Origin: Halobacteriovorax sp.
GTDB lineage: Bacteria; Bdellovibrionota; Bacteriovoracia; Bacteriovoracales; Bacteriovoracaceae
Direction: 5' to 3'
Assembly (NCBI GenBank): GCA_002720865.1
Contig: PBIO01000019.1
Coordinates: forward strand, 1-64,000
Length of the DNA stretch: 64,000 bases
The notes under the pieces are model-generated. The model had not been told where the DNA came from and did not search any database. It was given only the letters and a program-made list of their open reading frames with translations. Shown here piece by piece: positions 7,343 to 17,235 of this stretch (the first letter of the stretch is position 1; each line of letters opens with the position of its first letter). Position numbers and translations under genes: made by a program.

Positions 7343-7786
7343 GTGAAAAAGAAAGAGAAACTTGCCATAGGCTGGAGAGAGCGGATCGCAATCCCAGAAC
7401 TTAAGATCAAGGAAATAAAAGTAAAAGTCGATACCGGTGCAAGAACATCGGCTCTTCATGTTACTGATTTAGAAATTATAAAAAAGGGTAGAAAAACCTT
7501 TGTGGATTTTTATGTGCATCCCAATCAAGATTCAAGTAGACCGAGATTTAGAAATCTAGTTGAAGTTGAATGTTTTAAAGATGTAAAGAGCTCCAATGGA
7601 GTTAGCTCTAAAAGACCAGTTATAAAAGTTGATGCAAAATTAGGACAAGTAACAAAAACAATAGAAGTAACATTAGTTAATAGAGATATGATGGGATTTA
7701 GAATGCTTTTAGGAAGAGCCGCACTTCGTGGTGAGTTTCTGGTCGACTCTGGCAAATCATATCTATTAGGAAAGGTAAAAAAATGA
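7343..7786 (+). CDS. RimK-associated retropepsin-like zinc protease family protein (PF05618 type)
   Basis: A 147-residue single-domain protein of the family annotated as ATP-dependent zinc protease, which has a retropepsin-like fold. It has the key [12 protein letters not shown] motif near residues 29-40, with the catalytic-type D-T-G-A, and [11 protein letters not shown] near the end, the second fold element. The family is usually found beside RimK-type ATP-grasp ligases, and here rimK starts 4 bp inside this gene. The start is GTG at 7343 without a clear ribosome binding site; a downstream start would remove conserved sequence. Its likely role is in amino-acid-tag chemistry together with the next two genes. 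That is inferred from context only. Confidence 0.85.
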
Positions 7787-8691
7787 AAATAGCAATTATG
7801 TCTAGGGGCCCAAAACTTTACTCAACTCAAAGCCTTGTTAAGGCCTGTAAAGCCAGAGGTCACGAAGTAGAGATTATTAACCCTCTTAAGTGTTATATGA
7901 ATATTACCTCACATAAGCCTACGGTTCATTATAAAGACAAAGTTCTTGATTATTTCGATGCTGTCATTCCTAGAATCGGGGCGAGTATTACTTTCTATGG
8001 AACGGCCGTACTTAGGCAATTTGAAATGGGCGGGGTTTATTCAGCAAATGAGTCCGTTGCGATTAGCCGCTCTAGAGATAAGCTTAGAAGCCTTCAGATT
8101 ATGTCTAAAAAAGGAATAGGTCTTCCTGTTACTGGTTTTGCTAACTCAACGGCCATGACTGAAAACCTCCTCGAGTTAGTGGGAGGAGCTCCTTGTGTGA
8201 TTAAACTTCTCGAAGGAACTCAAGGGAAGGGAGTTGTCTTAGCGGAGAATACGAAGGCCGCTGAAAGTGTCATGGAGCTCGTTTCCGGTACAAAATCAAA
8301 CTACCTTGTGCAAGAGTTTATAAAAGAATCTGGTGGTACAGATATTCGCTGCTTTATCGTTGGTGATAAAGTTGTGGCCTCAATGAAAAGAACTGGGGCC
8401 GAAGGGGACTTTAGATCAAACCTTCACCGAGGTGGTTCAGCTAAAGTTATTAAAATTACTCCAGAAGAAAGAAGCACGGCCGTAAGGGCGGCTAAGGCCA
8501 TGGGGCTTAATGTAGCCGGTGTGGATATTCTAAGATCAAATCATGGTCCACTTGTTTTAGAAGTAAACTCTTCACCTGGACTAGAGGGAATTGAAACCGC
8601 AACAGGTAAAGATATCGCTGGTATGATTATTGATTTTATTGAAAATTCAGTTAAGAAAAAAGTTTCCAATAAAACGCGAGGGGAAGGTTAG
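7783..8691 (+). CDS. rimK: RimK-type alpha-L-glutamate ligase (ATP-grasp)
   Basis: A cytoplasmic ATP-grasp enzyme of 302 residues that closely follows the E. coli RimK pattern along its whole length. Recognised blocks include [14 protein letters not shown] at the start, [68 protein letters not shown] and [13 protein letters not shown]. Known for RimK: ATP-dependent addition of glutamate residues to the C-terminus of ribosomal protein S6, and poly-alpha-glutamate synthesis. It overlaps the zinc protease gene by 4 bp and the desuccinylase-like gene by 1 bp, so the three are translationally coupled. The C-terminal Lys/Arg-rich tail is an addition. Confidence 0.95.
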
Positions 8692-9683
8692 TGCCTAAGA
8701 AGTTAAAAATCGGCGGGGTAGAAGTTAAACCTGGCGAGAAAAAGACGATAAATCTAGAAGTGGCTAAAATTTATGATTCTACAGAGCTCACTATGCCCGT
8801 TAGAGTTATTAGAGGAACAAAAGATGGCCCCATCGTCTTTTTGTCTGCGGCAATTCATGGTGACGAGTTAAACGGTGTCGAAATTATTAGAGAAGTTTTA
8901 AAATATCTTGAGTCTAAAAAAATCAAAGGTACTATTATTGCGGTTCCGATCGTAAATGTTTTTGGTTTTAATAATAAGTCACGCTACCTACCTGATAGAA
9001 GAGACCTAAACCGCTCTTTTCCGGGAAGCACTCACGGATCCTTAGCTTCAAGAATGGCAAAAATCTTTTTAAAAGAAGTCGTATCAAAATGTACTCATGG
9101 AATAGATTTTCATACTGGGGCCATACATAGATCAAACTTCCCTCAAATTAGAGCCGATTTAAGTTGTTCAAAAACGAGGAAGTTTGCCAAAAGCTTTAAT
9201 GCTCCCATGACTCTTGATTCAAAAACAAGAGATGGCTCCTTAAGAGAAGCGGCCAGGAAAAAGGGTGTTTTAACTCTTGTTTACGAAGGGGGACAGGCCC
9301 TTCGGTTTGAAGACTCGGTCATAAAAATGGGGAAAAAAGGTTGTCTTGCGGCCTTAAGAGAGATTGGTGTTTTACTACCTCTTAAAAGGAAGGTTATTCC
9401 TTCGACAGTAAAGGCCTATGGAAGTTACTGGATCAGATCCCCAAAAGGTGGAACCTTTAAACTAGAAGTCTCACTTGGACAGGCCGTAAAGAAGAATCAA
9501 GTCATTGGGGTTATTAACGATCCTCTCGGAGAAGAAGTAGAGGAGATTTTAGTTCACAATAATGGATATATTATAGGTGTTAATGAGCTTCCTTTAGTAA
9601 CCCAAGGGGAAGCTCTTGTGCATGTTGCCACAGTTAAGGGAAGCACTTCGAAAAAAGATAGACTTATGGACTTTGTAGATTAA
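8691..9683 (+). CDS. succinylglutamate desuccinylase / aspartoacylase family zinc hydrolase
   Basis: An M14-like zinc amidohydrolase of the AstE/AspA family, 330 residues. Visible zinc ligands are the HxxE in AIHGDELNGVE (around residue 54) and the histidine in GIDFHTGA. The RDLNRSFPG block supplies the substrate-carboxylate Arg/Asn region, and an E in LVYEGGQA is the likely general base. The C-terminal 80 residues form a beta-barrel cap with GGTFKLEVSLGQAVKKNQ, like a biotinyl-lipoyl fold. Start is GTG at 8691 with GGGGAAGG upstream, one base inside rimK. Together with RimK and the retropepsin-like protein it is a known genomic trio. Removal of an amide-linked amino acid is a plausible but unproven role. 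Confidence 0.9.
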   Translation: MPKKLKIGGVEVKPGEKKTINLEVAKIYDSTELTMPVRVIRGTKDGPIVFLSAAIHGDELNGVEIIREVLKYLESKKIKGTIIAVPIVNVFGFNNKSRYLPDRRDLNRSFPGSTHGSLASRMAKIFLKEVVSKCTHGIDFHTGAIHRSNFPQIRADLSCSKTRKFAKSFNAPMTLDSKTRDGSLREAARKKGVLTLVYEGGQALRFEDSVIKMGKKGCLAALREIGVLLPLKRKVIPSTVKAYGSYWIRSPKGGTFKLEVSLGQAVKKNQVIGVINDPLGEEVEEILVHNNGYIIGVNELPLVTQGEALVHVATVKGSTSKKDRLMDFVD

Positions 9684-9692
9684 AATTTAGCT

Positions 9693-12600
9693 ATGCGCAA
9701 TTTACTCTTAGTCCTTTTCATAACTTTCTCACATAACCTTTACTCAAAAGACTGTTACGAGAATAAAACATTTAGTTTACTAACAAATCAAATAGGCCAA
9801 ATTAAAAACCTGATAAATGGTGAAGCCAGCAAAGGAAGTATCTTCTCTGTATTTGGTGAAGGGTTCGTACTAGATGATACTCCTAGATTAATTAGTGAGC
9901 TCGAAAAGCAAATTTCTGAAAGAAAGGGAATTTCATTAGAGCACGAATTACTTCATAAATGTCTTCAAGATAAAAAGATAAAAAAAGCTGGGGAGTTAAG
10001 CGATTTATCAATAGAGCTTACTAAGCTTAAGATTGAGCTATTAAAAAAGAATAAAAATTTAAATAATGCAATCGTTAAAAAAATCGAAGGGGAAAACCAG
10101 GTCCCGGAGATTAAAGAAGAAATAGAAAAAGAGAATAAGGCCAATGAGCTTGCCAAAAAAGTACTAACGAGTGAAGTCCTTGAAGCAGAAAGTACGGCCA
10201 CGATATCAACCGACTTAAAAGTAAAAAGGCTGGCGGCCTACAGGTCTGAGTTAACAAAACTAAAAATCGAACTCTTAAATAAAAAGATTGAGCATAATAA
10301 GGCCTTAGAGAGCAAGCTGAAGTACTTTGAAGATCAGTCTGAATTTCTCTCAAGCGTTCTCGTCGGAATTGAAGGCTTAAGTGAAAAAGAGGTGGCCCAA
10401 AGATTAAAGAAAACCGAAGAAATATGGATCGAAATCTCCTCTCGAAACTACAATATCTTTAGTGCAGGGGAGAGCTTTCAGCTTCCTCAAATCCCAAGTT
10501 CTACGATTACGGATACGGGAAGAGAAGACTTAAAAAAAGAAGTTTCGGATCTAAACTCCCTTAATCAAGAGTTAGTGATTTTTAAGCAAAAGACTTTAAC
10601 TGAGCTGACCTCTAAAAAGAATCATGAGTTAAAGCTCCATAATGATCTGCTTCTTCAAGTGAATAATGTAAGAGGTGTCCTTTATAATCTAGTACCTAGT
10701 AGCTTTGTTGTTAAGCAGGCTCTTACCATCGATTATTATAAAAAACTTATAAAAGAAGTGGCCGCATCTCCTTTTAGAATCTTAAGCTATTTTTACTCAA
10801 AGTTTCTCTACATTAGGGACGAGGTCTCTAAAGGAAATGAAGGCTTTAAAACCCTCGGTTACGATATTGTTTACTTAAGTTTTCTCGCTCTTATCCTGTT
10901 TGCTATAAAAACGGTTTTCTCAAACTCAAAGCAATGGGTTGATGGGCGGTTTATATCATTTTTTTCAAAATTTAGGTCGTATCAGCTAGTTAAAGGAATC
11001 CTTAGTCTTTGGAATAAAATCAAGGACAATACTGAGGATTTTCTCTGGCTTGGCCTTATTTATTTTATAAGAGAGCAGGATTTCTTAAGTGATGTAAGAA
11101 TCGTTTTAGATATTTTTCAAGTTATTTTTATAAGCCGAATTTTGAAGTCCGGAGTTATCCTTTTCTTTGGTTCTATTTCAAGAATTGACGTAAAAAGCTT
11201 TGCTGCCTTTAAAAGAAAGGCGCAGCTAGCAGCAAAATACTTTACTAATATTTATTTATTTTACGCACTTTCATTGATTTTTGTAGATGCTACCATCGGT
11301 CGAACTTATATCTTCTCTATTGTTAAATATACCGTCATTTTTTATTCCATATTCAGGTTAGTTGTAACTTCTTCAGATTGGGAAAAAGAGTTTTGGGTTT
11401 ATATCGAAAAGAACTTTTCCGGTTTTATCGTATCAAGACTTGAAGGCATTTTTAAGTTTTTTCCTCAAAAGTTAAGGGCCACGACTTATTTTGTTATCAT
11501 TATTTTATTTTCGATATTGAACCTATTTATTAGGGCAACTGAAAACTTTGAAATTTCAAAGAAAATCTCCGCTAATATTTTTAAAAAACAGATTGAGAGA
11601 GTAGAGGCTGAAAATGGATCTGACGAAGTCATTCCAGAGGAATACGCAAAATATTTCCAGTTAAATTCAATAGAGAATGAACAGGATTATGTTTGTGTAA
11701 GCGAAACTCTTGAAAACTCAATTATCGACGAAATGAAGGAGTGGATAACTGATAAAAGCGAGGAGCATTCCCTCGTTGTATTTGGGGACAAAGGAGTTGG
11801 GAAGACTACTCTTCTGAAACACTGTCTTGAAACTATTAATGGTGAATTCTCAGAACAAGTAAGAGTCATTAAAACTAAGATTCCTGCTAAAGTTTTAAAT
11901 AAAAAGGATCTTCAAAATTTTATTTGCCGGACAATTACAGGTAAAGAGATGGAAGGTAGTTTTGATCTCTACCAGTTGGATAAGGCCCTAGACAAAAAAG
12001 TTATTATCTTTTTTGATGAGGCTCAGAATAGCTTTCTTTCCCAAGTAGGCGGGTTTGATGCGTATGAGTATCTACTTAATTTACTTAACTTTAATACGGA
12101 AAATATATACTGGGTAATGTCTTTAAATAAATATAGCTGGCTTTATTTGGATCGGGCCTTCGGAAGAAATCAGTTCTTTAGAAATGTCTTTGAAATTAAA
12201 GGGTGGAGCGATTTAAAGATTAAAGAATTAATTATGAGTCGCCATAGTAAAACGGATTATAGCCTTTCTTTTGATTTACTAATCAATGCGACGAGGTCCC
12301 AAGATGAGATAGATCGCTATGCCTCTGTTGAATCCAAGTTTTTTAAATTACTTTGGGAGCTTTCCCGCGGAAATCCTAGGGCCGCTCTCTATCTTTGGAT
12401 GACGGCACTCTCAAGAAAACGACTGAAGACGTTTAACGTCAATATTCCTAAAGAGGTGGACCTGGCGGGGTTAGAGAAACTCCCAGATGATCTAATGTTC
12501 GTGATAGCTCATGTTTTAAAACATGAAAACTTAACCGCAAAAGAAATTGAACATGTGACAAATCTTCCTAATGGAATCGTTAGGAATGCCATTAAGGTAG

Positions 12601-12716
12601 GTCTAGAAAAGAACTTTCTTTTTAAAGATGAGAGAAATCGATACATGATTGATATCGCAAGCCAATACGGCGTGATTAAATTTTTAACCTTAAAGAACTT
12701 TATTTATGGAAGCTAA
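9693..12716 (+). CDS. membrane-anchored AAA ATPase with periplasmic coiled coil (split MscK-like architecture)
   Basis: A 1007-residue protein of unrecognised family. A signal peptide (MRNLLLVLFITFSHNLYS) is followed by about 350 residues of Lys/Glu/Leu-rich coiled coil, predicted periplasmic. A block of roughly five membrane helices spans about residues 390-620, and then comes a cytoplasmic P-loop ATPase. The Walker A GDKGVGKTT is at 698-706, and the Walker B IIFFDE ends at D775-E776. The C-terminal 80 residues look like a winged-helix or lid domain (LTAKEIEHVTNL). The signal peptide, coiled coil and membrane block recall MscK/MscM channels, whose MscS domain here is the next, 11-bp overlapping gene. 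I infer that the two form one complex. No experimental homologue is known to me. Confidence 0.8.
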   Translation: MRNLLLVLFITFSHNLYSKDCYENKTFSLLTNQIGQIKNLINGEASKGSIFSVFGEGFVLDDTPRLISELEKQISERKGISLEHELLHKCLQDKKIKKAGELSDLSIELTKLKIELLKKNKNLNNAIVKKIEGENQVPEIKEEIEKENKANELAKKVLTSEVLEAESTATISTDLKVKRLAAYRSELTKLKIELLNKKIEHNKALESKLKYFEDQSEFLSSVLVGIEGLSEKEVAQRLKKTEEIWIEISSRNYNIFSAGESFQLPQIPSSTITDTGREDLKKEVSDLNSLNQELVIFKQKTLTELTSKKNHELKLHNDLLLQVNNVRGVLYNLVPSSFVVKQALTIDYYKKLIKEVAASPFRILSYFYSKFLYIRDEVSKGNEGFKTLGYDIVYLSFLALILFAIKTVFSNSKQWVDGRFISFFSKFRSYQLVKGILSLWNKIKDNTEDFLWLGLIYFIREQDFLSDVRIVLDIFQVIFISRILKSGVILFFGSISRIDVKSFAAFKRKAQLAAKYFTNIYLFYALSLIFVDATIGRTYIFSIVKYTVIFYSIFRLVVTSSDWEKEFWVYIEKNFSGFIVSRLEGIFKFFPQKLRATTYFVIIILFSILNLFIRATENFEISKKISANIFKKQIERVEAENGSDEVIPEEYAKYFQLNSIENEQDYVCVSETLENSIIDEMKEWITDKSEEHSLVVFGDKGVGKTTLLKHCLETINGEFSEQVRVIKTKIPAKVLNKKDLQNFICRTITGKEMEGSFDLYQLDKALDKKVIIFFDEAQNSFLSQVGGFDAYEYLLNLLNFNTENIYWVMSLNKYSWLYLDRAFGRNQFFRNVFEIKGWSDLKIKELIMSRHSKTDYSLSFDLLINATRSQDEIDRYASVESKFFKLLWELSRGNPRAALYLWMTALSRKRLKTFNVNIPKEVDLAGLEKLPDDLMFVIAHVLKHENLTAKEIEHVTNLPNGIVRNAIKVGLEKNFLFKDERNRYMIDIASQYGVIKFLTLKNFIYGS

Positions 12717-13542
12717 AAACACGACACTCTTCGTCCTAGACTTTTTGAAATTAGATAAAGTTCTACTCTTTGTCGTTTTAATCGTTGGGATCGTTCTTTT
12801 TATAAAACTTGTTAATATTTGGACGACTAAATTACAGGAAAAGTTTTCTGGGAAAAGACTTACTATTTTACAAGTTGCCACAGTATTCTCTTTCTTTGTT
12901 TATCTGATAGGATTTTTAGGCTCATTTTATGTTGTCTTTAAACCCTCAAAAGAGATTTTAGTCACAATTGGTGGTTCTGCCGCAGTTGCTATTGGTTTTG
13001 CTTTAAAAGACCTGGTGGGATCAGTCATTGCTGGGTTTATCCTTCTTTTTGATAGGCCTTTTCAGGTGGGGGATCGAGTCGCCTTTGGAGATGTTTATGG
13101 AGAAATTAAAAGTATTGGTCTAAGATCAGTAAGACTCCAAACTCTAGACGATAATCTAGTCACAATACCAAACTCGAAATTTTTAACTGATGTCGTTTCT
13201 AGTGGAAATAGTGGCGCTCTAGATATGATGATCGTGGCAAATTTCTATATCTCAATCTACGAAAATTTAGATCGCGTAAGAAAGTCACTTCATGAAGTGG
13301 TTATTACCAGCCGTTTTGTTTATCTTGAAAAACCTGTTGTGGTGACATTTGATGAAGTTCCGCTAGCTCAGACTTTTGCTATAAAAGTAGGAGTAAAGGC
13401 CTACGTGCTTGATGTTAAATATGAGAAAGCTTTTTTAAGTGATATTATCTCTAGAGGTAATAAAATTCTAAAGGAGACGAATGTGGCAAGACCAGTGACT
13501 TACAAACTTGATGAAAGGGGAGATGGTGAAGCTCAGTATTGA
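12706..13542 (+). CDS. MscS-family mechanosensitive channel
   Basis: An inner-membrane channel of 278 residues. Two N-terminal membrane helices are followed by a classic MscS pore helix and loop (GGSAAVAIGFALKDLVGS), then FDRPFQVGDRVAFG and LVTIPNSKFL of the beta domain, and a C-terminal alpha/beta domain. It is much closer to canonical MscS than the gene at 3474. It overlaps the membrane AAA ATPase by 11 bp, and the amino acid:carrier ligase start lies inside its last codons, so the three are translationally coupled. I infer that it supplies the pore of the AAA protein's complex. Alternatively it is an independent osmotic safety valve that shares an operon by chance. Confidence 0.9.
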   Translation: MEAKNTTLFVLDFLKLDKVLLFVVLIVGIVLFIKLVNIWTTKLQEKFSGKRLTILQVATVFSFFVYLIGFLGSFYVVFKPSKEILVTIGGSAAVAIGFALKDLVGSVIAGFILLFDRPFQVGDRVAFGDVYGEIKSIGLRSVRLQTLDDNLVTIPNSKFLTDVVSSGNSGALDMMIVANFYISIYENLDRVRKSLHEVVITSRFVYLEKPVVVTFDEVPLAQTFAIKVGVKAYVLDVKYEKAFLSDIISRGNKILKETNVARPVTYKLDERGDGEAQY

Positions 13543-14698
13543 TATTGGCTTTGAGGCCAATGATGTTGATATTGAAAATCTTCAGACTGGACTGGCCTAT
13601 ATAAGTCAGGATATTGAAAACTTTGTCATTGATAAAGAAAAGCAAATTATCCATTTTGAACTTAAGAAAGACTCAGATGCCTCTCAGTTAGAAGTCTTAT
13701 TAAAAGAAGCTATTCTAAAATTTCGACCTTTTTCAGAGGACGATTCCACAGTAATTCTACATGATTTTAAAAGCTATGAGGTTGCTAACTCAGAAAATGT
13801 CTTCAGTGCTTTGGTAGAAAGGGGAGATATTACAGAGTATAACGAAGGCTACTTCGCTTTAAGCGGAAAGCTTTTGCAAAATATGAAGAAAATTGATGAA
13901 GAACTTTTAATCTTTGCTAGATCGCTGAGTTCAAGTGAAGTTATCTTTCCAATAACTACACAAATCTCTAATTTAAATAAACATGATTTCTTTAAGCAAA
14001 CTCCTCAGTTTGCCAATTTTATTTCTACCCTTAGAGAAGACATTGAGAATATTTCAAATCTATCTAAAGGTCTTTCTGGGGATGACGAGTTCAAAATCAC
14101 TGAGCATGTTCATGATCCAAAATGTATGTGCCGCTCTGCCGTTTGTTTAAATAGTTATCCTCGGTATGAGAATAAAAAATTTAGAGAGGAACAAAATATA
14201 GCCTTAACTTCAGTGGGCAAAGTTTTTAGGAATGAATCCAAAAATGTTCAGTCACTAGAAAGGCTCCATGAATTTTCAATGCGAGAAATTATCTTTTTTG
14301 GGTCAGCCGAATATGTTGATGAATCATTAAAAAAATGTGTTCAGTGGTGTGTGGACTTTATTAAAAAATTCAAATTAAAGTCGATCATACAATCCGCCAA
14401 TGATCCCTTCTTTGCAGAAAATTTTTCTACTTTGCAGTTCTATCAAAGATCACAGGTCTCCAAATATGAAGTAAAACTTTTTAACCCTGCCTCACAAAAT
14501 CAAGTTTCTTGTGCCTCTTTGAATAACCATGGGACTCATTTCTCAAAGGCTTTTAATATTAAGTTTGAAAATGATGAGTATATCTTTACTGGCTGTGCCG
14601 GTTGGGGACTTGAAAGATGTATCTTCATGATTTACGCTCAGTATGGTGTTGAGGAAGAAAAATGGCCGGTTGAGCTAAGAGAGTTCTTTAAGCTTTAG
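13523..14698 (+). CDS. SerRS-like amino acid:carrier protein ligase
   Basis: A class II aminoacyl-tRNA-synthetase homologue of the amino acid:[carrier protein] ligase family, which activates Gly or Ala and loads it on the phosphopantetheine of a small carrier protein. Visible: C208 in CLNSYPRY, motif 2 FRNE (R236) with HEFSMRE (E255), NNHGTHF, and motif 3 GCAGWGLER (C358). C208, E255 and C358 match the Cys-Glu-Cys zinc site known for this family. IFPITTQISNL and FFKQTPQFANF match the family's N-terminal catalytic blocks. It lacks a tRNA-binding arm. Roughly 120 N-terminal residues are extra. Start: ATG at 13523 with AGGGG close upstream; TTG 13508 and ATG 13511 are alternatives. The stop overlaps tail to tail with the carrier protein gene by 11 bp. 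Confidence 0.85.
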   Translation: MVKLSIDIGFEANDVDIENLQTGLAYISQDIENFVIDKEKQIIHFELKKDSDASQLEVLLKEAILKFRPFSEDDSTVILHDFKSYEVANSENVFSALVERGDITEYNEGYFALSGKLLQNMKKIDEELLIFARSLSSSEVIFPITTQISNLNKHDFFKQTPQFANFISTLREDIENISNLSKGLSGDDEFKITEHVHDPKCMCRSAVCLNSYPRYENKKFREEQNIALTSVGKVFRNESKNVQSLERLHEFSMREIIFFGSAEYVDESLKKCVQWCVDFIKKFKLKSIIQSANDPFFAENFSTLQFYQRSQVSKYEVKLFNPASQNQVSCASLNNHGTHFSKAFNIKFENDEYIFTGCAGWGLERCIFMIYAQYGVEEEKWPVELREFFKL

Positions 14699-14912
14699 AT
14701 TCAAGAACTTCAATAATCTTTTGGACAGAATCCATTTGAGCAATTTCACCCATTTCAAATTTCGTGGAAAAGTTAGCTTCTAACTTCATTATCATTTGTA
14801 AATGTTTTAATGAGTCCCACTCTTTTAAATTATTGATAGTAGTGTCAGTATTAACGAGAGATGAATCGACCCCAAAAACTTCTGAAAAAGCAGTTTGAAT
14901 CTTATCTAACAT
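14688..14912 (-). CDS. acyl/aminoacyl carrier protein (DltC-like)
   Basis: A 74-residue four-helix carrier protein. The phosphopantetheine serine is S34 in WDSLKHL, the expected DSL motif; the N-terminal MLDKIQTAFSEVFG and central NNLKEWDS fit DltC/ACP helices. The strong ribosome binding site AAGGAG sits 6 bases before the ATG and overlaps the stop of the upstream microprotein. It is the last gene of a minus-strand set SGNH - MBOAT - microprotein - carrier, and it converges with the ligase gene on the other strand. The likely cargo is an amino acid loaded by that ligase and handed to the MBOAT. A fatty-acid role is unlikely, because no fatty acid synthesis genes are near. Confidence 0.9.
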   Translation of the reverse strand: MLDKIQTAFSEVFGVDSSLVNTDTTINNLKEWDSLKHLQMIMKLEANFSTKFEMGEIAQMDSVQKIIEVLESKA

Positions 14913-14921
14913 AGAAACTCC

Positions 14922-15023
14922 TTAGAATTCGTATTGAAAGCCAAATTGATAATCACCAACGTAGAGTACGCAGACAAGAATTAGTAAGAGTAATAGGTGC
15001 TTAATCATTATGGTTAAATTCAT
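14922..15023 (-). CDS. 33-residue membrane microprotein, DltX-like
   Basis: A very short gene: one membrane helix after a short N-terminus carrying Lys/His (K8, H9), then Asp and an aromatic end, FGFQYEF. The charge pattern predicts an N-in, C-out orientation. It begins with ATG that overlaps the MBOAT stop (ATGA, 15020-15023), and its stop TAA runs into the AAGGAG of the carrier gene, so the coupling is tight. Known for Dlt systems: DltX is a membrane microprotein whose C-terminal hexapeptide tyrosine shuttles the acyl group from the MBOAT to DltD. Here the end is F-x-Y-x-F, one residue shorter between Tyr and the last Phe than the DltX motif as I recall it. The assignment is strong by context and modest by sequence. 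Confidence 0.72.
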   Translation of the reverse strand: MNLTIMIKHLLLLLILVCVLYVGDYQFGFQYEF

Positions 15024-16243
15024 AAGAAGCTAAAGATCCTTTTAATTATTGCCGTCTTTTCAATAAATATTATCAAGCTAAATACAAAAAAATGAAAGGT
15101 GGTTAGAGTTGCTAATACTCTCACCATTGTCGATTTTTGGTACCACTGCATTCTTTCCTGACCGATTAATTTAGGTAATTGAGAGCTATAAACTTGAAAG
15201 GCAGCCAGGGCCAGACCATGACATAGGCCATACCAAAGATAAATGCTCTTATCTCCATGCCAAATTCCTGCTAAAACAAAAGTAATTATGTAGGAAATCG
15301 CCGCAATCGCCACAAAGTTTTTAAATCCTATTCTTATAAAAAACATTTGTAGGGGAAAATAAATATAGTCCCTTAACCAGTGGATAAAACTAATATGCCA
15401 GCGATTCCAAAATTCTTGAATATTTCTGGCCATAAAAGGGTTGTTAAAGTTTTCGGGCGTCTTAATGCCAAGAAGTCTTGATATTCCAATGGCAATATCA
15501 CTATAGCCAGAGAAATCTAAATAAAGAACAAAAGCGTATAAGTAAGAGCCTAGAAATAGACTAGAAGTAGGAGCTTGGGCCAAGTCTATATTATTTATTC
15601 CGAAGATTGATAGTCCATAAAGAGAATCAGCGATTAATGCTTTTTTAAAAAGACCAAAGATTATCCTTGATACAGCTAAGTAGGTTTCTTTTGCACCAAG
15701 AGGAGTGCTTATATTGGCGTCTTGGATAAATCGGTCGAATCGATCGAGTGGTCCCGAAAGGTAACAAGGAAAAAATAAGAGGTAGTTTATATAATGAAAG
15801 AAATCTGGTTTTTCTTTTAGTTTACCCTGGGCCGTATCAACCACAAGAGAGATGAGTTTGAAGCTAAAGAAAGAGATGCCAATAAAGCTAATCGGCTTTA
15901 AAAGGCTTGCGCTTAGTGGAAAAAAAGCAATAAAAAAGCTTTGAACTAAACTGTACTTATAAAAGCATAAAGCAATTAAACTTATCCCAATTAGTAGTCC
16001 AGTCAAGAACTTGTTGGTCCTTTGCTTATATAGGGCCAAGATTCCTAAGTAATTGGTGCCTAGAAAAAAGAAAAGTAATAAGAGGTGCTTTTTACGGTAG
16101 TAAAAAAGCAAGACGATAAAGCTAAGATTTAAAAATGCTAAAACTTTTTTTCTACTTTCTGGCCCCTTACAGAGATTCATAATGAAAAAAGCAATTAGGA
16201 CAAATAAATAGTAAGAAAGCGACTTTAAATCAATCAATTCCAA
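15020..16243 (-). CDS. MBOAT acyltransferase (DltB/AlgI-like)
   Basis: A polytopic inner-membrane O-acyltransferase, 407 residues with about 11 hydrophobic segments. Characteristic blocks are FPCYLSGPLDRF, YLDFSGYSDIAIGISRLLGI, NIQEFWNRWHISFIHWLRDY (N280, H283) and AGIWHGDK with the invariant catalytic-type H329; a second His is at 342 (LCHG). Known for the family: DltB takes D-alanine from carrier DltC in the cytoplasm and passes it across the membrane. The gene overlaps the SGNH gene by 14 bp upstream and the microprotein by 4 bp downstream. AlgI in alginate acetylation is an alternative relative, but the adjacent carrier protein favours a Dlt-type donor. Confidence 0.92.
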   Translation of the reverse strand: MELIDLKSLSYYLFVLIAFFIMNLCKGPESRKKVLAFLNLSFIVLLFYYRKKHLLLLFFFLGTNYLGILALYKQRTNKFLTGLLIGISLIALCFYKYSLVQSFFIAFFPLSASLLKPISFIGISFFSFKLISLVVDTAQGKLKEKPDFFHYINYLLFFPCYLSGPLDRFDRFIQDANISTPLGAKETYLAVSRIIFGLFKKALIADSLYGLSIFGINNIDLAQAPTSSLFLGSYLYAFVLYLDFSGYSDIAIGISRLLGIKTPENFNNPFMARNIQEFWNRWHISFIHWLRDYIYFPLQMFFIRIGFKNFVAIAAISYIITFVLAGIWHGDKSIYLWYGLCHGLALAAFQVYSSQLPKLIGQERMQWYQKSTMVRVLATLTTFHFFVFSLIIFIEKTAIIKRIFSFL

Positions 16244-17177
16244 GCCCCTTTAAATCAATTGAAATGATTTTTCCCATTCTCCTATTTCCAGCTGGATTTA
16301 AATGAATATAATCTAAAAAGTTTTCAGAATTTGACTCTAGGCTATTCGTATAATCAAAAAAGTTAACTTCTAAAGGGACTAACTCTTCTTTTACACTTAG
16401 TTTAAACTCTTCAAAATCTTTTTTATTAAAACTAGTGTCGCTTTTATAGATTGGATCAAAATAGGCCAGAACCACTATTTTGTTCTCTTTGGCCTCTGTA
16501 ATAAGAGATTTTAAAACGCTAAAGCTTTGCTTAGCCTGGGTTTTGATATCAAGAATGCTCACCCCTTTTTTCCCATAGATATCGGTGCTCATTGTGGGAC
16601 CGTAAATTTTCTCTTTTAAATTAAAGATAGCCGACTTTAACTCTAGAAGTTCTACTGGAGGATAGGCCACTTTCATAGAATCCGAAGTAAAAAAAGAAAA
16701 TAGCTTTTTATTATCTTTTTGTTTTTGAATTTGCTCGATATGGTCTTTTGGCAATGAGCTTTTCAATAACTCTAGATTATTCCACTCAAGAAACCCGCTC
16801 TCATTATTGGCAAAGAGCCCTGGATTTATACCTATGATGAGAACTTTTGGATTATATTTAAGGGATAGTTTAAAGAGGGTTAAGAGCGCCGTAGTGGAGG
16901 CACCTAGAACCCCTAGATTATAGCTTTGATAATTGGTGAGATGTTGGTTTAACTGGTCGCTAATATTATTCATTTTGGGAATATTGCTTCCGGCCACGGA
17001 GGAGTTACCGAGAAAAATTATTTTTTCTTTCAGATCAGTTTTTGAAACTAAGTGCTGACTTAAGTTTGTCGCGCCTGTGTAGAGGTAGGGATGAAGGCCC
17101 TCTTTAGAGCTTTTTATAAAGATTGGCTTAATGACAATAATAGTTAAAAAAATACTAAAAAGTAAAAACCGGTACAT
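16230..17177 (-). CDS. SGNH-fold envelope transferase (DltD/AlgJ-like)
   Basis: A single N-terminal membrane anchor (hydrophobic residues 4-20) and a periplasmic SGNH/GDSL domain, 315 residues. The nucleophile block is FLGNSSVAG (S59 or S60), the second block is NLGVLGASTTA, and the catalytic Asp-His pair is DYIHLNPAGN (D289, H292). Known for DltD and AlgJ/AlgX: the final acyl transfer to the envelope polymer outside the cytoplasmic membrane. Start: ATG at 17177 with AAGGAAGAG upstream; the longer TTG start at 17195 has no good site. It leads the set and overlaps the MBOAT start by 14 bp. The acceptor polymer cannot be told from the sequence. Confidence 0.85.
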   Translation of the reverse strand: MYRFLLFSIFLTIIVIKPIFIKSSKEGLHPYLYTGATNLSQHLVSKTDLKEKIIFLGNSSVAGSNIPKMNNISDQLNQHLTNYQSYNLGVLGASTTALLTLFKLSLKYNPKVLIIGINPGLFANNESGFLEWNNLELLKSSLPKDHIEQIQKQKDNKKLFSFFTSDSMKVAYPPVELLELKSAIFNLKEKIYGPTMSTDIYGKKGVSILDIKTQAKQSFSVLKSLITEAKENKIVVLAYFDPIYKSDTSFNKKDFEEFKLSVKEELVPLEVNFFDYTNSLESNSENFLDYIHLNPAGNRRMGKIISIDLKGLGID

Positions 17178-17235
17178 TCGCTCTTCCTTGAACAATATTA
17201 AAATTATAACAAGGGGGAAGCCCTATTACTAGAGT

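Follow-up and report, generated by a model that had tools for sequence, protein, structure and literature searches.

What do the small class II synthetase-like enzymes that attach amino acids to carrier proteins do for the cell? These amino acid:carrier protein ligases are known to take Gly or Ala as cargo, and the role of the resulting aminoacylated carriers was unknown according to a 2022 review (PMC9437257). For a paralogue of seryl-tRNA synthetase (SerRS) and its carrier, a note in proof from 2010 predicted that an amino acid is joined, via Atu2574, to an amino group on a sugar of the cell surface (PMC2922099). In the 64-kb stretch of DNA analysed here (the window), which comes from a relative of predatory bacteria, such a ligase is part of a five-part gene set at 13523-17195 that resembles the Dlt system, and every part lies at the position given in an earlier, sequence-only reading:

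13523..14698, plus strand: amino acid:carrier protein ligase, class II with a type-2 SerRS-like core, predicted carrier loader
14688..14912, minus strand: carrier protein of 74 aa, phosphopantetheine site Ser34 (EWDSL)
14922..15023, minus strand: X, a 33-aa single-span membrane peptide ending in GFQYEF, DltX-like, candidate acceptor Tyr31
15020..16243, minus strand: DltB-like MBOAT acyltransferase, His283 and His329
16230..17195, minus strand: SGNH protein with an N-terminal membrane span and a DltD-like predicted fold, Ser59, Asp289 and His292

Residues of the SGNH protein are numbered from the ATG at 17177, which seems a more probable start than the TTG at 17195. The genes for the SGNH protein, the MBOAT, X and the carrier overlap their neighbours or lie 9 bases apart and were therefore read as one operon. 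The ligase gene meets the carrier gene tail to tail with an overlap of 11 bases, and its 5′ end lies inside the 3′ end of an MscS-like gene (12706-13542). Scans for promoters and terminators gave no clear excess over shuffled sequences. In the region 7343-13542, genes of the Zn_protease family, for a RimK ATP-grasp protein and for an AspA/AstE-like protein stand in a row, followed by the genes for a membrane AAA ATPase of 1007 aa (9693-12716) and for the MscS-like protein.

The assignments made in the sequence-only reading held for each part. The proposed carrier with its DSL motif and S34 matches PF00550 above the cut-off and contains EWD-S34-L; the proposed MBOAT with a WHG histidine (H329) matches PF03062 (8e-22) and has both His283 and His329; the GNSS and DxxH motifs of the proposed SGNH protein were found as G57-N-S59-S and D289-Y-I-H292; and the 33-residue membrane microprotein corresponds to X. 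The class II ligase said to carry a C208/E255/C358 site and to lie tail to tail with the carrier gene does so, and it aligns with Bll0957.

The ligase matches PF00587 (6e-13), and its top NCBIfam model is the amino acid--[acyl-carrier-protein] ligase NF005479, with 127 bits against a cut-off of 357; judged from its sequence, it is a divergent branch of the same superfamily. A profile built from 11 ligase relatives and searched against the PDB found Bll0957 (the glycine:carrier ligase of the 3MEY family) at 2e-46 and type-2 SerRS at 6e-38. Among these 11 relatives, one of them truncated, C208, E255 and R236-x-E238 are invariant; C358 and R365 are almost invariant. The Cys, Glu and Cys of the window ligase align with those at chain positions 151/196/299 of Bll0957 (PDB 3MEY), which we take to be residues 131/176/279 in native numbering, with a role in zinc binding. 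In Bll0957 and type-2 SerRS, this metal site binds the amino group. The enzyme has class II motifs 2 and 3 besides the Cys-Glu-Cys site, is 391 aa long, has no tRNA-binding domain and has its partner carrier adjacent. Its AlphaFold model (pLDDT 81) is closest in fold to type-2 SerRS and next to Bll0957, alone and with its carrier (4H2S); compared with Bll0957, there is an extra N-terminal stretch of about 75-100 residues. An ordinary SerRS is encoded elsewhere in the genome.

The MBOAT scores 246 bits with the DltB model TIGR04091 (cut-off 375), and its profile search of the PDB returned only DltB (1e-62). Both histidines, His283 and His329, are conserved between the window protein and six close relatives and correspond by position to DltB His289 and His336, the key residues of that enzyme (PMC11035591). 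The protein ends in KRIFSFL, so that a PatA-type FXYXXF ending is absent. In the Dlt system, DltB transfers D-Ala to the Tyr in the C-terminal FXYXXF motif of DltX, from which it passes to DltD, whereas MBOAT-SGNH pathways outside Dlt work without carrier or DltX and have the motif on the MBOAT itself (PMC12148441). Peptide X had no family match, contains one hydrophobic span and terminates exactly at GFQYEF, i.e. FXYXF, one residue short of FXYXXF. This ending is invariant in seven loci, and reads GFQYNL in a further genome of the window's own genus (G002) and NFQYVQ in the distant genome G179. A degenerate DNA pattern for GFQYEF-stop matched in 8 of the 129 family genomes, the reversed control in none. 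Six of the matches are five-part loci and one belongs to a core with a different loader (G072, below); the last, in G109 (L048/L051), was rejected as chance, there being no plausible ORF on that strand.

The SGNH protein gave only sub-threshold Pfam matches, none of them to DltD, and its profile found no significant sequence match in the PDB. Its predicted model (pLDDT 71, moderate, from four sequences) has DltD as the top fold match, with Z 14.3-15.6 over 257-266 aligned residues, whereas generic SGNH folds align over about 165-200 residues only.

The adenylating enzyme DltA had been reported absent from the set, and we found no TIGR01734 match over the cut-off in the genome. The best matches to this model were NRPS frames on contig C31 or acyl-CoA-synthetase-like proteins, and no DltA-like enzyme was found outside these. 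A DltA among the C31 NRPS domains was rejected, as these domains sit in frames of 1273-2194 aa. The NRPS genes (C31, about 229000-291000) are accompanied by a phosphopantetheinyl transferase, the only one in the genome by the Pfam ACPS model, so that the window carrier would have to rely on it unless the genome has one of another type.

The sequence-only reading depended on conserved synteny, and the set has indeed been kept together in relatives. All five parts occur together in six family genomes and in three arrangements. G001 (L028) has the same module and flanks as the window; in G064 and G066, the order is SGNH-MBOAT-X-carrier-ligase on one strand; and in G126 and G087, the ligase gene is divergent from SGNH-MBOAT-X-carrier. 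Since the set recurs in relatives it is not a chance assembly, and the three arrangements of the same parts speak for a functional unit and against a mere inherited neighbourhood. Among the 129 family genomes, members of the MBOAT clade score 610-657 bits in seven genomes and 383 in G002; everything else, including AlgI-type MBOATs, which were not counted as members, scores ≤209. The ligase occurs in nine family genomes, the MBOAT clade in eight and both in six (hypergeometric p about 4e-7, kinship ignored).

Outside the family, looser versions of the set were detected in two further families of its phylum. All five genes (SGNH, MBOAT, X, carrier and ligase) are present in G179 (L103), and G342 (L107) combines ligase and carrier with an SGNH-like protein and an AlgI-type MBOAT whose own C-terminus contains NFYYARF. 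At the G342 locus (L107:4399-7722), the ligase and this MBOAT with its C-terminal Tyr motif seem to have come together independently. G172 (L031) has a carrier, a ligase and an MBOAT, the last of these truncated at the contig end. A divergent set in G032 (L016:10198-14039), near a NeuB-type nonulosonate gene, has ligase, carrier, MBOAT and SGNH genes contiguous, but with FNG in place of WHG in the MBOAT and the DxxH of the SGNH protein lost; no X peptide was seen at this locus. This set may be either a decayed or a rewired system.

Two of the eight genomes with a clade MBOAT, G072 and G002, have no ligase anywhere, and their loci bear directly on what the ligase does. In G072 (L050), a 496-aa DltA-like enzyme occupies the divergent position held by the ligase in G126 and G087. 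Among NCBIfam models, it scores 247 bits with the amino acid adenylation domain and 228-246 bits with DltA models (TIGR01734 228), all below cut-off. The Asp in the FDxS segment is retained, and an Ala replaces the Cys that DltA has in its FLFCGE segment; we take the Asp to bind the amino group and the Cys to favour D-Ala. In G002 (L082:4303-9222), the SGNH-MBOAT-X-carrier core is joined by a FadD/MenE-like acyl ligase. The same locus encodes a 324-aa protein without a Pfam match that may make or modify the acyl group. Unless the ligase acts as the loader, it is difficult to account for a constant core whose neighbour is a class II ligase in some genomes and one of two kinds of ANL enzyme in others. 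A fusion points in the same direction: in G003 (L015:2520-4010), the ligase is C-terminally fused to a carrier domain (EWDSL), and the fusion gene lies between 2OG-oxygenase-like and sugar acyltransferase-like genes. The MBOAT tree did not resolve the direction of the swaps.

From these comparisons, it appears most likely that the ligase loads the carrier and that the MBOAT, X and the SGNH protein carry the aminoacyl group to an acceptor outside. We consider with good confidence that the locus encodes an envelope aminoacylation pathway of the Dlt type, in a Gram-negative host and with a synthetase-like enzyme as its loader. The Dlt-like pathway of the sequence-only reading is thus upheld in outline, by the absence of DltA and the conserved synteny, to which the loader swap in G072 and G002 is added. 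For the chemical steps, the cargo and the acceptor, we infer the following. The ligase would use ATP to activate a small amino acid and attach it to the carrier through the phosphopantetheine arm on Ser34; Gly or Ala is the most likely cargo, because known ligases load them. At the cytoplasmic face, the MBOAT would accept the aminoacyl group from the carrier, and the MBOAT channel would lead this group to X, where Tyr31 of the C-terminal GFQYEF would receive it. In the periplasm, X would then hand the group on to the SGNH protein at Ser59, and the SGNH protein would esterify a surface polysaccharide.

The proposed acceptor comes from gene neighbourhoods. In L036, L038 and L050, the module has a polysaccharide flippase gene (PF01943) and genes for group 1 glycosyltransferases on its flanks, and L037 has the same gene order by ORF comparison; no polysaccharide cluster surrounds the module in the 64-kb window itself. 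The location among surface-polysaccharide genes in four relatives suggests a surface polysaccharide as the acceptor. The aminoacyl group might instead form an amide with a sugar or lipid A at their amino groups, or be moved to a periplasmic protein, and the 2010 prediction of ligation to a sugar amino group via Atu2574 (PMC2922099) speaks for such an outcome. We regard it as unlikely: family and ORF inspection found no gene of that canonical context adjacent to the module, and the DltB-X-DltD machinery yields O-esters in the characterised case.

Not every ligase of this family has such neighbours. In 5 of the 15 ligase genomes in the phylum, there is no adjacent MBOAT, which indicates that the family also serves other pathways. 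Ligase relatives occur in 75 plasmid records. No MBOAT was present near them in the annotated Phyllobacterium and Streptomyces contexts, none was named in the Apilactobacillus plasmid context, whose genes are mostly hypothetical, and in one Burkholderia record the region carries no annotation; the only MBOAT match on a plasmid (Leptolinea) had no annotated ligase or carrier. The Phyllobacterium context (acyl-CoA dehydrogenase/DUF1839/glycosidase) is of the kind in the 2010 note and unlike that in the window. One could suppose that the window ligase and carrier belong to another aminoacyl pathway, with a small peptide or a modified amino acid as its product, and are only neighbours of an ordinary acetyl-CoA-dependent MBOAT-SGNH acetylation pair, as family ligases elsewhere are found with acyl-CoA dehydrogenase, DUF1839 and glycoside hydrolase genes or in KAS-like clusters, all without MBOAT. 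However, the five genes are linked in all three arrangements, the DltB-type MBOAT is accompanied by a separate X with the carrier gene directly after it, and other loaders stand beside the same core, which makes this explanation quite improbable. That the loader charges a non-standard small acid, the DltB likeness saying nothing about cargo, is very improbable: the FadD-like loader of G002 shows that the core can be fed by a family using other acids, but the window ligase keeps the Cys-Glu-Cys amino-group site of Bll0957 and type-2 SerRS.

Returning to an aminoacylation pathway loaded by the ligase, we lean towards a broader proposal: MBOAT, X, SGNH protein and carrier may form a general chassis for acyl export, with the cargo determined by the loader, an exchangeable part drawn from unrelated superfamilies (class II ligase, or DltA-like or FadD-like ANL enzyme), and envelope esterification may be the first defined role of amino acid:carrier protein ligases.

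Compared with the Gram-positive Dlt system for teichoic acid D-alanylation (DltA-DltC-DltB-DltX-DltD), the window set is alike in its carrier, DltB-like MBOAT, microprotein with a C-terminal Tyr motif and DltD-like SGNH protein. It differs in having a class II synthetase-like ligase instead of DltA and a Gram-negative host; in addition, its X motif is one residue shorter, its MBOAT is under the DltB cut-off and its SGNH protein is missed by the DltD Pfam model. In outline, its predicted workings are thus those of Dlt, yet it is not classed under that system, since it lacks DltA and its MBOAT, SGNH protein and X lie beyond the curated definitions. Bll0957-type ligases (3MEY, 4H2S) share the class II core, the Cys-Glu-Cys site, the adjacent carrier and the lack of a tRNA-binding domain, whereas the window ligase has its N-terminal extension and an MBOAT-X-SGNH context rather than acyl-CoA dehydrogenase, DUF1839 and glycosidase genes. 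With AlmEFG, which places glycine on lipid A in Vibrio cholerae, the set has in common a carrier-based envelope aminoacylation in a Gram-negative. There, adenylation is the work of the ANL enzyme AlmE, and AlmG differs from an MBOAT-SGNH pair (in part PMC12930378). PatA-PatB and related Gram-negative acetylation systems also pair an MBOAT with an SGNH protein and share the idea of an acyl-Tyr shuttle, but they have no carrier or microprotein, use acetyl-CoA as donor and bear FXYXXF on the MBOAT (PMC12148441). The sequence-only reading knew of no description of the combination, and our literature search, with most subscription papers outside it, found no paper joining an amino acid:carrier ligase with a DltB/MBOAT, X and an SGNH protein.

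The locus offers a concrete, testable answer to the question of what amino acid:carrier protein ligases are for, and would give them a first likely job. It would extend carrier-fed, microprotein-shuttled acylation to Bacteriovorax-type Gram-negatives, and its relatives provide a natural loader-swap series, with class II, DltA-like and FadD-like enzymes beside one transfer core, from which the cargo choice of the MBOAT may be learned.
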